Below are positions 19,219-25,798 of a DNA stretch of 64,000 bases, in pieces. Numbering within the stretch: position 1 is the first letter of the stretch; each line of letters begins with the position of its first letter. A program made the translations under genes and the position numbers. The notes under the pieces are model-generated. The model had not been told where the DNA came from. It was given only the letters and a program-made list of their open reading frames with translations, and ran no database searches. The DNA comes from Anaeromyxobacter diazotrophicus (GTDB lineage: Bacteria > Myxococcota > Myxococcia > Myxococcales > Anaeromyxobacteraceae). Location: positions 62,001 through 126,000 of the forward strand of contig NZ_BJTG01000009.1 of the NCBI RefSeq assembly GCF_013340205.1. Reading direction: 5' to 3'.

Positions 19219-20691
19219 TCACCCCGGGCGGCGGAGCCCCGGCGAGACGACCAGCCGCTCGACGAGGCCGAAGCCGGCCTCCACCGCGAGCGCGAGCAGC
19301 GCGGCCGGCACGGCGCCCTCCAGGATGAGCGGCACCGAGTCGAGCCGCAGGCCGGTCAGGATGGGCTGACCGTAGCCGCCCGCGCCGATGAGCGCGCCCA
19401 GGGTCGCCGTCCCCACCGCGATCACCGCCGAGGTCTTCACGCCGGCCAGGATCGCCGGGAGGGCGAGCGGCAGCTCCACGCGACCCAGCCTCGCCCGCCG
19501 CGGCAGCCCGAGCGCCTCGGCCGACTCGCGCAGCTCCGGCGGGATACCCACGAGGCCCGCGTGCGTGTTCCGGACGATGGGGAGCAGCCCGTACAGGAAC
19601 AGCGCCGCCACCGCGGGGCGCGCCCCGATGCCGAGGAGCGGGATCATGAACACGAGCAGCGCCAGGGAGGGGATGGTCTGCACGAGCCCGACCGCCCCCA
19701 GCACGAGCCGCCCCAGCCGGCGGCGGCGCGCGGCCGCCACGCCGAGCGGGACGGCGACCACCACCGCGGCGGCGAGCGACACCCCCACCAGCGTGAGGTG
19801 CTCGCCGGTCCGCCGCGCCACCCGCCGGGTGAGGCCGTCCCGCGGGGGCGCCCACGCGGCGCCGAGCGCCTCTCGCAGGAAGCTCGCCGCCACCGCCTCC
19901 GAGGGGACGCCCTCGAGCTGGACGCGCCCGTCGAGCCGCCGCATCAGCTCCAGCGGGAGCCGGCCCTCCAGCCGGCGCAGCGCGGCGACCGCGGCCGGCG
20001 CCCGCGCCTCGAGGTCGGCCCGGTAGAGGTACACCGCCTCGTACCGCGGGAACGCGTGCCGGTCGTCGGCGAGCAGGACCAGGTCGCGCTGCTCGAGCTC
20101 CGGGTCGGTGGTGTAGGCGTCGGTGGCGTCGATCTGGCCGGCGGCCAGCGCGCGGTAGGCCACGTCGTGGTCGAGGCCGCGCACGGCGCGCTGCGGCAGC
20201 GCGTAGCGGTCGCGCAGCGCCGGCCAGCCGTCGCCGCGGTCGAGGAACTCGTTGGTGAAGGCGAGGCGCAGCTCGGGGTGGCGGGCCAGGTCGGAGACCG
20301 AGCGCAGGCCGAGCGCGGCCGCCCGGTCGCGGCGCACGGCGATGGCGTAGCTGTCCTCGAACCCGAGCGAGCGCGTGAGCTCCACCCCGCGCGCCGCCAG
20401 CGCCCGCCGCAGCGCCGCCTCGTCCACCGGGCCGGGCAGCCCGAGCAGCTCCCGCCAGGCGGTGCCGGTGTACTCGGGGTAGAGGTCGACGTCGCCGCGC
20501 TGCAGCGCCGACCAGAGGATGCGCGTGCCGCCGAGCGCGCTGCGGTGGACGGCGGCCACGCCGCTCGCGGCGAGGAGCCCGGTCGCGACGTCGCCCAGCA
20601 GCACGGACTCGGTGAACTTCTTGGAGCCGACGCGCACGGTCGGCGGCGCGGCCAGGAGCGCCAGCGCCACGAGGAGGGCGCCGGCGCTCAC
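19219..20691 (-). CDS. Osmoprotectant-type ABC binding-protein/permease fusion
   Basis: A 490-residue fusion. Residues about 1-18 are a signal or anchor helix (GALLVALALLAAPPTVRVGS). Residues about 18-275 form an OpuAC/ProX-type quaternary-amine binding domain (VGSKKFTESVLLGDVATGLL, DVDLYPEYTGTAWRELLGLP, FTNEFLDRGDGWPALRDRY). Residues about 300-485 are the permease with six hydrophobic segments and the EAA loop ESAEALGLPRRARLGRVELP. In the better-known fusions of this family the permease comes first; here the binding domain does. The GTG start at 20691 overlaps the ATPase stop (GTGA). It probably imports glycine betaine, choline, carnitine or a thiol-betaine; the exact substrate is unknown. 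Confidence 0.87.
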   Translation of the reverse strand: MSAGALLVALALLAAPPTVRVGSKKFTESVLLGDVATGLLAASGVAAVHRSALGGTRILWSALQRGDVDLYPEYTGTAWRELLGLPGPVDEAALRRALAARGVELTRSLGFEDSYAIAVRRDRAAALGLRSVSDLARHPELRLAFTNEFLDRGDGWPALRDRYALPQRAVRGLDHDVAYRALAAGQIDATDAYTTDPELEQRDLVLLADDRHAFPRYEAVYLYRADLEARAPAAVAALRRLEGRLPLELMRRLDGRVQLEGVPSEAVAASFLREALGAAWAPPRDGLTRRVARRTGEHLTLVGVSLAAAVVVAVPLGVAAARRRRLGRLVLGAVGLVQTIPSLALLVFMIPLLGIGARPAVAALFLYGLLPIVRNTHAGLVGIPPELRESAEALGLPRRARLGRVELPLALPAILAGVKTSAVIAVGTATLGALIGAGGYGQPILTGLRLDSVPLILEGAVPAALLALAVEAGFGLVERLVVSPGLRRPG

Positions 20692-21476
20692 CGCGGCTCC
20701 GGCAGCGAGAGCCCGCGCTGGGCGCGCAGGAAGCGGATGACGAACGGGTCGGCCGGCGCGGCCAGCAGCTCGGGCAGCGCGCCCTCCTGCAGCACGCGGC
20801 CATCCCGCATCAGCACGAGGTGACGGGCGAAGAAGACCGCCTCGGCGAGGTCGTGGGTGACGAGCAGCACGGTCTTGCGCAGCCCCGCGAAGACGCCCTC
20901 CAGGTCGCCCTGCAGGTCGGCGCGGGTGAGCGGGTCGAGCGCGCCGAGCGGCTCGTCGAGGAGCAGCACCGCCGGGTCGAGCATGAGCGCGCGCATGAGC
21001 CCGACCCGCTGCGCCTGGCCGCCGGAGAGCTGCCCGGGGTACCGCGCCAGGGCGTCGTCGTCGAGCCGCGCCAGCCCGGCCAGCTCGCGCACCCGCGCGG
21101 CGACGCGCTCGCGCGGCCAGCCGAGGTGGCGCGCCACCAGGGCGGCGTTGTCGCGGGCGGTGAGGTGCGGGAAGAGCCCGCCTCCCTGCACCACGTACCC
21201 GATGCGGCGGCGCAGCGCGTCGTCTGCCGGCCCGATGGGCCGCCCCTGGAAGAGGACCTCGCCGCCGTCGGGCCGCGCGAGCCCCAGGAGCATCCGCAGC
21301 AGCGTCGACTTGCCGGCGCCGCTCGGCCCCACCAGCGCCACCGTCGTCCCCTCCCCCACCGCCAGCGAGACCGGGCCGACGGTGACGCCCTCGCGGTGGC
21401 GCTTCCACGCGGCGCGCAGCTCCAGCGCCGGCGCGACGCCCCCCGCGCCCCGGTCCCCGTCCGCCGCTCGCTCCAC
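20688..21476 (-). CDS. ABC transporter ATPase, osmoprotectant type
   Basis: A 262-residue ATPase of the ProV/OpuCA group without the C-terminal CBS domains. Walker A is VALVGPSGAGKSTLLRMLLG and the Q-loop lies in RIGYVVQGGGLFPHLTARDN. The signature is LSGGQAQRVGLMRAL, Walker B AVLLLDEPLGALDPLTRADL, and the H-loop LLVTHDLAEAVFFARHLVLM. I chose the GTG at 21476 because GGAGG lies about 8 nt upstream; a TTG at 21524 would add 16 unlikely residues. It is the first gene of a two-gene operon with the fusion protein and powers that importer at the inner membrane. Confidence 0.88.
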   Translation of the reverse strand: MERAADGDRGAGGVAPALELRAAWKRHREGVTVGPVSLAVGEGTTVALVGPSGAGKSTLLRMLLGLARPDGGEVLFQGRPIGPADDALRRRIGYVVQGGGLFPHLTARDNAALVARHLGWPRERVAARVRELAGLARLDDDALARYPGQLSGGQAQRVGLMRALMLDPAVLLLDEPLGALDPLTRADLQGDLEGVFAGLRKTVLLVTHDLAEAVFFARHLVLMRDGRVLQEGALPELLAAPADPFVIRFLRAQRGLSLPEPR

Positions 21477-21597
21477 GCGCGCCCCTCCGCCCGGCGATCT
21501 CACCGGGCCGGGGGGCGCGCGCAACGCGACGGCGGGTGCACCACGCCCGGCGGCACGCTATCGTGGCGCCCGCGCAGCGGCGCCGCCAGGAGGATCG

Positions 21598-23970: not shown

Positions 23971-24609
23971 ATGAGCTCGCCCGACCGCGACATCTTCACC
24001 GAGCCCGAGATGGATCCGGTGACCCTCCGCCACCTCGGCCCGCTCGCGGCGCTGGCGGGGGTCTGGGAGGGCGCCGGCCTCGACACGCACCCCGTCCGCG
24101 AGGGCAGCGCCGACGACGCTTACCTGGAGCGGATGGAGCTCCAGCCCATCGACCCTCAGCCCAACGGCCCCCAGCTGCTCTACGGGCTCCGCTACCACCT
24201 CCACATCCGGAAGCCAGGGGAGGCGGTCACGTTCCACGACCAAGTCGGCTACTGGTTGTGGGAGCCGGCCACGAACACCGTCATGCAGTCGCTCACCATC
24301 CCCCGCGGACAGGTCGCACTGGCGGGCGGGCGGGCCGAGCCTGACGCGCGGCGCTTCACCGTCCGCGCCGAACTCGGCTCGCGCACGTTCGGCATCTGCT
24401 CCGGCCCCTTCCTCGACGAGGCGTTCCGGACGCTGGCGTACACGGCGACGCTCGCCGTGAACGACGACGGGACGCTCACCTACGAGCTCGACACCGTGCT
24501 GCAGGTCGCCGGAAGGGCCGAGCCGTTCCACCACACCGACCGCAACACGCTGCGGAAGGTGGCCGAGCCGTCGCCCAACCCGGCCGCGCGCGTGGCCGCG
24601 GAGGGCTGA
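23971..24609 (+). CDS. Nitrobindin-like haem-binding beta-barrel protein
   Basis: A 212-residue protein of the FABP-like/nitrobindin family. The signature LAALAGVWEGAGLDT (G-x-W-x-G-x-G) opens the barrel, followed by YGLRYHLHIRKPGEAVTFHD and VGYWLWEPATNTVMQSLTIP. The C-terminal FHHTDRNTLRKV carries the His expected to ligate haem iron. Relatives bind ferric haem and interact with NO or peroxynitrite; activity here is inferred. The length is slightly above the 160-200 of typical members because of a 25-residue N-terminal extension. Its start is leaderless-like (TATACT 6 nt upstream). No operon partner. Confidence 0.82.
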   Translation: MSSPDRDIFTEPEMDPVTLRHLGPLAALAGVWEGAGLDTHPVREGSADDAYLERMELQPIDPQPNGPQLLYGLRYHLHIRKPGEAVTFHDQVGYWLWEPATNTVMQSLTIPRGQVALAGGRAEPDARRFTVRAELGSRTFGICSGPFLDEAFRTLAYTATLAVNDDGTLTYELDTVLQVAGRAEPFHHTDRNTLRKVAEPSPNPAARVAAEG

Positions 24610-24617
24610 CGCGCCCT

Positions 24618-25022
24618 TCAGCGCGCGAGGGCCGTCGGCCCGCCCGCGACCGGCTGCGCGCAGGCGCGGCAACGCGTCGCCGCCGCGGGCAGCACCTCGA
24701 GGCACTGCGGGCAGGTCTGCGTCGGGGCCGGCGCAGGCTTCGCCTCGCGCAGGAACGCCTTCACGATCGCGAACACGACCGCCGCCACGATGACGAAGTC
24801 GAGCAGCCGCCCGGCGAAGTCGCCCACCAGGAACGGCCCCAGCTTCACCTGCCGCCAGTCGCCGCCCGGGGAGACGAGCCCGACGATGGGCATGATGAAG
24901 TCGTCCACCAGGCCCGACACGATCCGCCCGAACGCGGCGCCGATCACGACGCCGACCGCGAGGGCGAGGGCGTTCTGCTTGAGGAGGAAGTCGCGGAACT
25001 CCCCGGCGAGGTTTTTCACCAT
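24618..25022 (-). CDS. mscL: MscL mechanosensitive channel with C-terminal zinc ribbon
   Basis: A 134-residue large-conductance mechanosensitive channel. The N-terminal helix and TM1 read FRDFLLKQNALALAVGVVIG and AAFGRIVSGLVDDFIMPIVG, the family's most conserved stretch. The periplasmic loop is short (SPGGDWRQVKLGPF) and TM2 is about residues 70-95. The usual charged C-terminal helical bundle is replaced by a Pro/Ala linker and a zinc-ribbon motif: C104-x2-C107-x10-C118-x2-C121. The channel opens under membrane tension to release solutes in hypo-osmotic shock. The ribbon could set oligomer packing or bind a partner. TAGAAC lies 6 nt upstream of the ATG. Confidence 0.9.
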   Translation of the reverse strand: MVKNLAGEFRDFLLKQNALALAVGVVIGAAFGRIVSGLVDDFIMPIVGLVSPGGDWRQVKLGPFLVGDFAGRLLDFVIVAAVVFAIVKAFLREAKPAPAPTQTCPQCLEVLPAAATRCRACAQPVAGGPTALAR

Positions 25023-25246: not shown

Positions 25247-25798
25247 ATGACCAAGGCCACCAGCCCGGATGACCGCGCCGAGCTCCTGCGAGCGCTCGAC
25301 AAGGAGGAGCTCGTCCGGATCGTCCTCGACGACGCGAAGAACTGGCTCGCGCACGACGGGCTGTGGTTCCAGGCGGTCGAGGCCGCCCACGGGATGGAGG
25401 CCGCGATCGCGGCCGACCGGGCCGCGTGGGAGCGGTTCACGGTGGTCGAGGCGAGGCGGATCATGGACCGCCTGGGGATGCAGCCCGGCGGCGGCATCCC
25501 CGCGCTGCTGGAGTGCCTGAAGCACCGCCTGTACGCGCGGCTCAACACGCAGGAGGTGATCGAGGCCACCGCCGAGCGGGCCGTGTTCGCCATGCGCGAC
25601 TGCCGGGTCCAGTCGGCGCGGAAGAGGAAGGGGCTCCCCGACTTCCCCTGCAAGAGCGTCGGGCTCGTGGAGTACGCCGAGTTTGCGAAGACCGTGGACG
25701 CGCGGATCCGCACGCGCTGCCTCGCGTGTCCGCCCGACGCTCACGCCGACGACGTGTGGTGCGCCTGGGAGTTCACCCTCCCGGGCGAAGCGCCCTAG
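25247..25798 (+). CDS. DUF6125-like cytoplasmic protein
   Basis: A 183-residue soluble protein. The sequence starts LDKEELVRIVLDDAKNWLAH and GLWFQAVEAAHGMEAAIAAD. It then has FTVVEARRIMDRLGMQPGGG and a Cys-containing second half with CKSVGLVEYAEFAKTVD and TRCLACPPD. I associate this pattern with the DUF6125 family, which occurs in methanogens and deltaproteobacterial-type genomes. Its function is unknown. Six cysteines, three of them in LACPPDAHADDVWC and just upstream, might bind a metal. It ends at a CTAG shared with the convergent DUF1015 gene. The 224 bp upstream (25023-25246) are GC-rich and hold no gene; no clear promoter was found. Confidence 0.75.
   Translation: MTKATSPDDRAELLRALDKEELVRIVLDDAKNWLAHDGLWFQAVEAAHGMEAAIAADRAAWERFTVVEARRIMDRLGMQPGGGIPALLECLKHRLYARLNTQEVIEATAERAVFAMRDCRVQSARKRKGLPDFPCKSVGLVEYAEFAKTVDARIRTRCLACPPDAHADDVWCAWEFTLPGEAP

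Follow-up and report, generated by a model that had tools for sequence, protein, structure and literature searches.

A predicted zinc-ribbon tail in place of the C-terminal helical bundle of the mechanosensitive channel MscL

In the window analysed here, a stretch of 64,000 nucleotides from the genome of Anaeromyxobacter diazotrophicus, we find a gene for MscL, the textbook mechanosensitive channel and pressure-release valve, in which the C-terminal bundle has very likely been replaced by a small four-cysteine ribbon. The tail had initially been noted as a feature of this one gene and turned out to be a widespread architecture, present in 146 of 279 distinct MscL sequences. Comparison of these sequences supports the view of ribbon and bundle helix as modules that take each other's place on related cores, the exchange falling just after the linker that follows TM2. 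Our favoured overall explanation, to which we assign a probability of about 0.5, is that a constitutively folded ribbon cap stands in for the bundle. In the literature, judged by titles and the starts of abstracts and with subscription papers mostly outside the search, no report of a ribbon or zinc finger in MscL was found, and the word 'zinc' does not occur in the available portions of PMC9033278 or PMC10069478. The ribbon-tailed MscL is apparently an undescribed variant, and a domain-database listing of the pair of MscL and ribbon may exist.

The gene and the predicted fold of its tail

A preliminary description of this DNA had placed an MscL with a normal core at 24618-25022 without giving its strand. 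The open reading frame matches these limits exactly and lies on the minus strand (Table 1), and its product is a genuine MscL by PF01741, with 87.8 bits over residues 7-108 against a gathering cut-off of 27.4. The NCBIfam mscL equivalog TIGR00220 gave 69.1 bits, just under its curated cut-off of 71, and the remaining listed NCBIfam MscL models also scored the protein under their cut-offs, so that it is assigned to PF01741 only. From its membership of the MscL family, the protein is predicted to form a tension-gated large-conductance pore; it is the sole MscL found in its genome. The gene stands alone, with a convergent gene for a THAP4-like heme-binding protein (23971-24609) on one side and a divergent gene for a DUF6125 protein (25247-25798) on the other. 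About 3 kb away, on the minus strand (window 19222-21524), there is an osmoprotectant-type ABC importer made up of an ABC ATPase and a fusion of a permease with an OpuAC substrate-binding domain, which places genes for osmolyte uptake and release near each other.

Table 1. Features of the mscL gene and its product, in window coordinates
Feature	Position	Strand	Basis
mscL gene, 134 aa and stop	24618..25022	minus	ORF, ATG start; Pfam MscL 87.8 bits; MscL proteins as best PDB relatives, E 6e-15
Channel core, residues 1-91: N-terminal helix, TM1, periplasmic loop, TM2	24750..25022	minus	AF2 helices 3-15, 18-50, 67-91; Foldseek best match 4y7k (archaeal MscL), E 1e-4
Pro/Ala linker, residues 92-100	24723..24749	minus	Sequence
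Zinc-ribbon-like domain, residues 101-125	24648..24722	minus	AF2 pLDDT 91; sub-cut-off UPF0547, DZR and DZR_2 matches; zinc-finger overlays
Cys104 codon, predicted metal ligand	24711..24713	minus	Sequence
Cys107 codon, predicted metal ligand	24702..24704	minus	Sequence
Cys118 codon, predicted metal ligand	24669..24671	minus	Sequence
Cys121 codon, predicted metal ligand	24660..24662	minus	Sequence
Short C-terminal extension, residues 126-134	24621..24647	minus	Sequence

The arrangement initially described for the tail, a Pro/Ala linker and then C104-x2-C107-x10-C118-x2-C121 after TM2, was found in the translation at all four positions. These are the only cysteines of the protein, all located after TM2 with the spacing CxxC-x10-CxxC, and the tail comes after the linker REAKPAPAPTQT. 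Of the 9 other proteins aligned in A1, 8 have 0-2 residues following the ribbon. By chance, the exact cysteine pattern was obtained in 45 of 200,000 shuffles of the window tail and in 36 of 290,000 shuffles of 145 ribbon tails. A spurious reading frame or accidental cysteines are ruled out by the Pfam score, these shuffles and the recurrence of the tail in other MscLs.

There is good reason to believe that the tail adopts a zinc-ribbon fold, a conclusion that we hold with high confidence on the strength of predicted models. In the AF2 model of the window protein, made from a 13-row alignment, residues 101-120 reach a pLDDT of 91 and form a short hairpin with strands at 101-103 and 110-112, the confidence for the core being modest; the equivalent model of an Eisenbacteria protein gave a pLDDT of 94-95 over residues 111-130. 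Both are models of monomers without metal, with 4 of the 13 alignment rows carrying the ribbon and pTM values of 0.39-0.45. Foldseek searches with the tail retrieved RanBP2/Nup153 and NZF fingers, RadD and the ribosomal protein eL40. With so short a piece, no E value was better than 0.2; several of the hits superposed at 0.7-1.0 A across about 25 residues, and others covered longer segments at 3-6 A. A second structural aligner returned the same kinds of fold with Z scores of about 2, which prove little alone. When a profile built from such tails was compared with solved chains, RadD came first (E 0.0055) with the identical CxxC-x10-CxxC spacing. Altogether, the sequence, the AF2 model and the fold overlays agree with the broad definition of a zinc ribbon as two CxxC knuckles on a small beta hairpin, which would hold a metal, presumably zinc.

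Comparison with known systems locates both the likeness and the novelty of the protein. The window MscL has in common with the classical channels of E. coli and M. tuberculosis (PF01741) the N-terminal helix, TM1, TM2, the periplasmic loop and a Pro/Ala linker below TM2, but it lacks their LLxEIRDxL-like bundle helix and carries the Cys4 ribbon there instead. The best structural match to its core is the archaeal MscL of 4y7k and 4y7j (sequence E 7e-15 and 1e-14), a riboflavin synthase fusion in the solved construct, whose sequence match stops at residue 97, before the ribbon. In turn, the bacterial ribbons of the UPF0547/DZR type have the pattern CPxC...A.RC..C in common with the ribbon MscLs, and UPF0547 was matched by 36 of 50 of these at E <= 0.01. 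The window ribbon, which differs from them in sitting as a channel tail, scored under the Pfam gathering cut-offs for UPF0547 (PF10571, 17.1 against 29 bits), DZR (PF12773, 14.7 against 27.3) and DZR_2 (PF18912, 18 against 27), and is for this reason assigned to none of the three. As for the RanBP2/NZF fingers and the RadD zinc domain, the last with 40% identity over the matched part, they belong to soluble proteins, and their partners Ran and ubiquitin are not expected for an MscL ribbon. The genome of the window has one other close ribbon (L294:1060-1575, E 4.5e-6), in a protein of 171 aa where an N-terminal MKLCPYCAEEIQDAAIRCKHC ribbon is followed by a hydrophobic stretch.

Ribbon and bundle tails on related cores

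The 279 distinct MscL sequences, 4 of them fragments, comprise 146 with the four-cysteine ribbon, 54 with the bundle helix pattern and none with both. For the bundle we used an LLxEIRDxL-like pattern drawn from known MscL tails, which we take to represent this helix; neither the window protein nor any of the 146 ribbon forms matches it. Another 72 sequences have neither ribbon, tail cysteine nor bundle pattern, a class that is overcounted since the simple pattern misses some helices (for example that of L138). The existence of MscLs lacking both ribbon and bundle pattern indicates that a cap is not essential. A further 20 MscLs read later followed the same lines, with 9 ribbons (all with a spacer of 10), 10 bundles and 1 tail of neither kind. 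The preliminary description had the ribbon in place of the C-terminal bundle, a view that these mutually exclusive classes and the tail swaps on related cores support.

The ribbon itself is strikingly uniform. Its spacer has 10 residues in 144 of the 146 sequences and 11 in the other 2, and no complete sequence among the 279 has a lone CxxC tail; L079, one of the 4 fragments, comes from a contig that ends right after the first CxxC. Within the 144 ribbons with a spacer of 10, position +7 is always Ile, Val, Leu or Met, position +13 always Arg or Lys, and position +11 is Ala in 142. Moreover, none of the 11 ribbon pairs compared had a ribbon dN/dS as high as 0.3, the linker changing more than the ribbon in 9 of them and the constraint on the ribbon being about that on the core, not always stronger. 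The all-or-none presence of the cysteines, the conserved positions and the low dN/dS together indicate that selection acts on the ribbon as a whole.

A close-up view of the exchange is given by the eight best ribbon-bundle pairs, whose cores are 65-73% identical. Most of them have in common a charged segment following TM2 and a linker rich in Pro and Ala, beyond which the tails are entirely different. An example is the ribbon protein L102 (...NRLRRQEQVAPASPTEKPCQFC...) against the bundle protein L201 (...NRLRRQEEEAPAEPEAPPEPSAEEKLLGEIRDIL...). A tree built from the cores alone (106 columns, 115 rows) calls for 15 changes of the ribbon label, at least 5 of them forced by well-supported branches; parts of this tree are poorly resolved, the bootstrap had yet to converge, and the changes do not separate gain from loss. 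A single ribbon clade with a single origin was rejected by the AU test on this same tree (p-AU 4e-5; 106 columns, 115 rows, bootstrap not settled). The several exchanges between this second tail class and the bundle on related cores are natural swaps with which the disputed role of the bundle can be probed. Both kinds of tail also occur within one genome: G214 has two separate mscL genes, L154 and L155, one with a ribbon tail and one with a bundle tail.

Possible roles of the ribbon

The role of the cytosolic bundle of MscL is itself disputed, and the available text of PMC5722894 considers it as a sieve, a stabiliser or a part of gating. According to the same portion of that source, the E. coli bundle has been proposed as both sieve and stabiliser, and the E. 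coli channel without residues 110-136 still gates, with more subconducting activity. A channel that works after loss of its bundle is what would be expected of a modular tail.

Given the swaps between ribbon and bundle, the simplest reading is that the ribbon has the bundle's role with another fold. According to this proposal, each subunit would carry, in place of its share of the five-helix bundle, a single small Cys4 zinc ribbon tethered below TM2 by a short Pro/Ala segment, and each ribbon would most likely keep one structural metal permanently, probably Zn2+. Five ribbons gathered under the pore, in a pentameric arrangement presumed for the channel, might form a compact cap that would do the bundle's job of limiting the pore entrance and the loss of large solutes, and that would also steady the pentamer and its conductance states, tension sensing and the pore itself being located in the core. 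Taken singly, the role of cap as opposed to docking or switching is a tentative preference, somewhat short of even odds. Against it, a ribbon of 25 residues held by a flexible tether may miss a fixed place on the five-fold axis, and the closest folds are mostly partner-binding fingers.

This last point leads to a docking module, in which the ribbon would bind a cytosolic protein or a nucleic acid, siting MscL or tying its opening to another process. The closest solved folds do include interaction modules, such as RanBP2/Nup153 with Ran-GDP, NZF with ubiquitin chains and the RadD zinc domain, and a ribbon that varies less than its flexible tether, as in the 9 of 11 pairs above, would suit such a function. 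However, the mscL loci have no widely common neighbour family: within about 1.5 kb, the commonest occurs at 7 of the 102 loci compared, and no operon partner was found among them. Furthermore, the conserved positions other than cysteine recur in the other ribbon protein of the same genome (MKLCPYCAEEIQDAAIRCKHC...), which argues for positions required by the fold rather than for a special surface. Docking, made plausible by the related folds, is the main rival reading; we judge it less likely than not and prefer the structural cap.

A third reading takes the ribbon as a zinc- or redox-dependent gate or filter, where loss of the metal or oxidation of the cysteines would alter the gating threshold or the filtering by the pore. 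The only four cysteines of the protein do lie below TM2, and metal ions have been tried on MscL variants with engineered pore residues for shifts in gating threshold (Iscla 2004, through a passage of PMC10069478 that does not include the outcome). The absence of partial ribbons is equally compatible with a structural site and with a switch. Zinc is usually bound tightly by Cys4 ribbons of this type, which counts against such a gate, and these ribbons are for the most part constitutive structural or binding modules. The gating that persists in tail-truncated E. coli MscL, as given in the available part of PMC5722894, points in the same direction, so that a switch is not the default reading and we regard it as unlikely.

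A more general version of these ideas would have two widespread classes of MscL, with the ribbon either reading the metal or redox state of the cytosol or docking a partner, and so tying the opening or selectivity of the valve to the state of the cell in many bacteria and some archaea; it is conceivable, though we would not expect it to hold. Finally, a functionless passenger tail, retained through descent or by chance, would fit the MscLs without ribbon or bundle pattern, where no tail seems strictly needed, but is highly improbable in view of the strong purifying selection, the lack of any half-lost ribbon in complete sequences and the repeated exchange across phyla.

Occurrence of the ribbon among genomes

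Homologues with the same tail, whose search had been suggested in the preliminary description, were found in large numbers and in several phyla. Among the first 14 relatives found, 3 had the ribbon (in records titled Myxococcales, Deltaproteobacteria and Eisenbacteria) and 11 were without it. Six whole-genome sets were then searched with profile A1 and the tails were read. This profile was built from ten ribbon MscLs and could bias the search toward ribbon forms; in the window's own phylum, which is the scope of this control, the Pfam MscL model and A1 gave the identical 59 MscL-bearing genomes. An oddity confined to one genome is ruled out by the ribbon MscLs of relatives and of other phyla.

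The expectation that close relatives would have the tail held for half of them. In the window's family, MscL occurs in 14 of 24 genomes, 7 with the ribbon (L001 and L023-L028, the window's own included) and 7 with a classical bundle, and the bundle forms include that of G010, the sole other genome of the window's genus. Six of the ribbon genomes have a core like that of the window and one has a different core, and one genus of the family (g2) holds both ribbon and bundle forms. In the whole phylum, A1 matched 60 of 195 genomes, the match in G192 being confined to the ribbon end. The ribbon is present in 40 of the 59 MscL-bearing genomes, so that the E. coli and mycobacterial MscLs, the forms studied most, do not represent the whole family; the other 19 are without ribbon or cut off, among them G141, whose gene is cut before its tail (L147). 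Besides a full ribbon-tailed gene elsewhere in its genome, G052 has a truncated N-terminal half of MscL (57 aa, L146) that is probably a decaying second copy.

Outside this phylum, and with phyla named as in the record titles, the frequency of the ribbon varied widely. It was present in 23 of 34 fetched loci from the Eisenbacteria phylum (47 genomes searched, 34 of 35 rows read) and at 55 of 110 loci from the phylum of the Gemmatimonadetes record L006 (200 genomes searched), where all 110 channel-core rows were read and 10 rows matching at the ribbon end only were omitted. The phylum of L015 (a record titled 'bacterium'), a phylum of small genomes, gave 24 ribbons at the 58 loci fetched out of 95 rows, from a search of 192 genomes. 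In that of the Thermoplasmatales record L005 (116 genomes searched, 24 matched), all 8 fetched loci had the ribbon, these being 8 of 26 rows; of the 26, 15 have the channel core, and the match reached the ribbon end in 10 of these 15 core rows. The ribbon is rare in the phylum of the Verrucomicrobia record L010 (194 genomes searched), being reached in 1 of 57 core rows, and the 12 loci read there, out of 66 rows, comprised 1 ribbon, 10 bundles and 1 tail of neither kind. Actinomycetota also have ribbon MscLs, in Nonomuraea (L060) and, more divergent, in Kitasatospora (L290), both from a plasmid collection where they are without annotation.

Some single loci deserve mention. At L010:2548-4935, an MscL core is in frame with MASE1, PAS and histidine-kinase domains in a protein of 796 aa; a query across the junction gave no other full-span match in 150 genomes of the same family, which leaves two options for the gene, a singleton fusion or a chimera produced in the assembly of a single metagenome bin. 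Two unverified records titled 'Bacteriophage sp.' from human faecal samples encode a ribbon-tailed MscL (L286:1939-2388 and L287:2983-3411), and may be bacterial DNA mislabelled as phage. Lacticaseibacillus phage R23.1, in a record titled complete genome, encodes a bundle-tailed MscL annotated as a hypothetical protein (L291:3013-3381).
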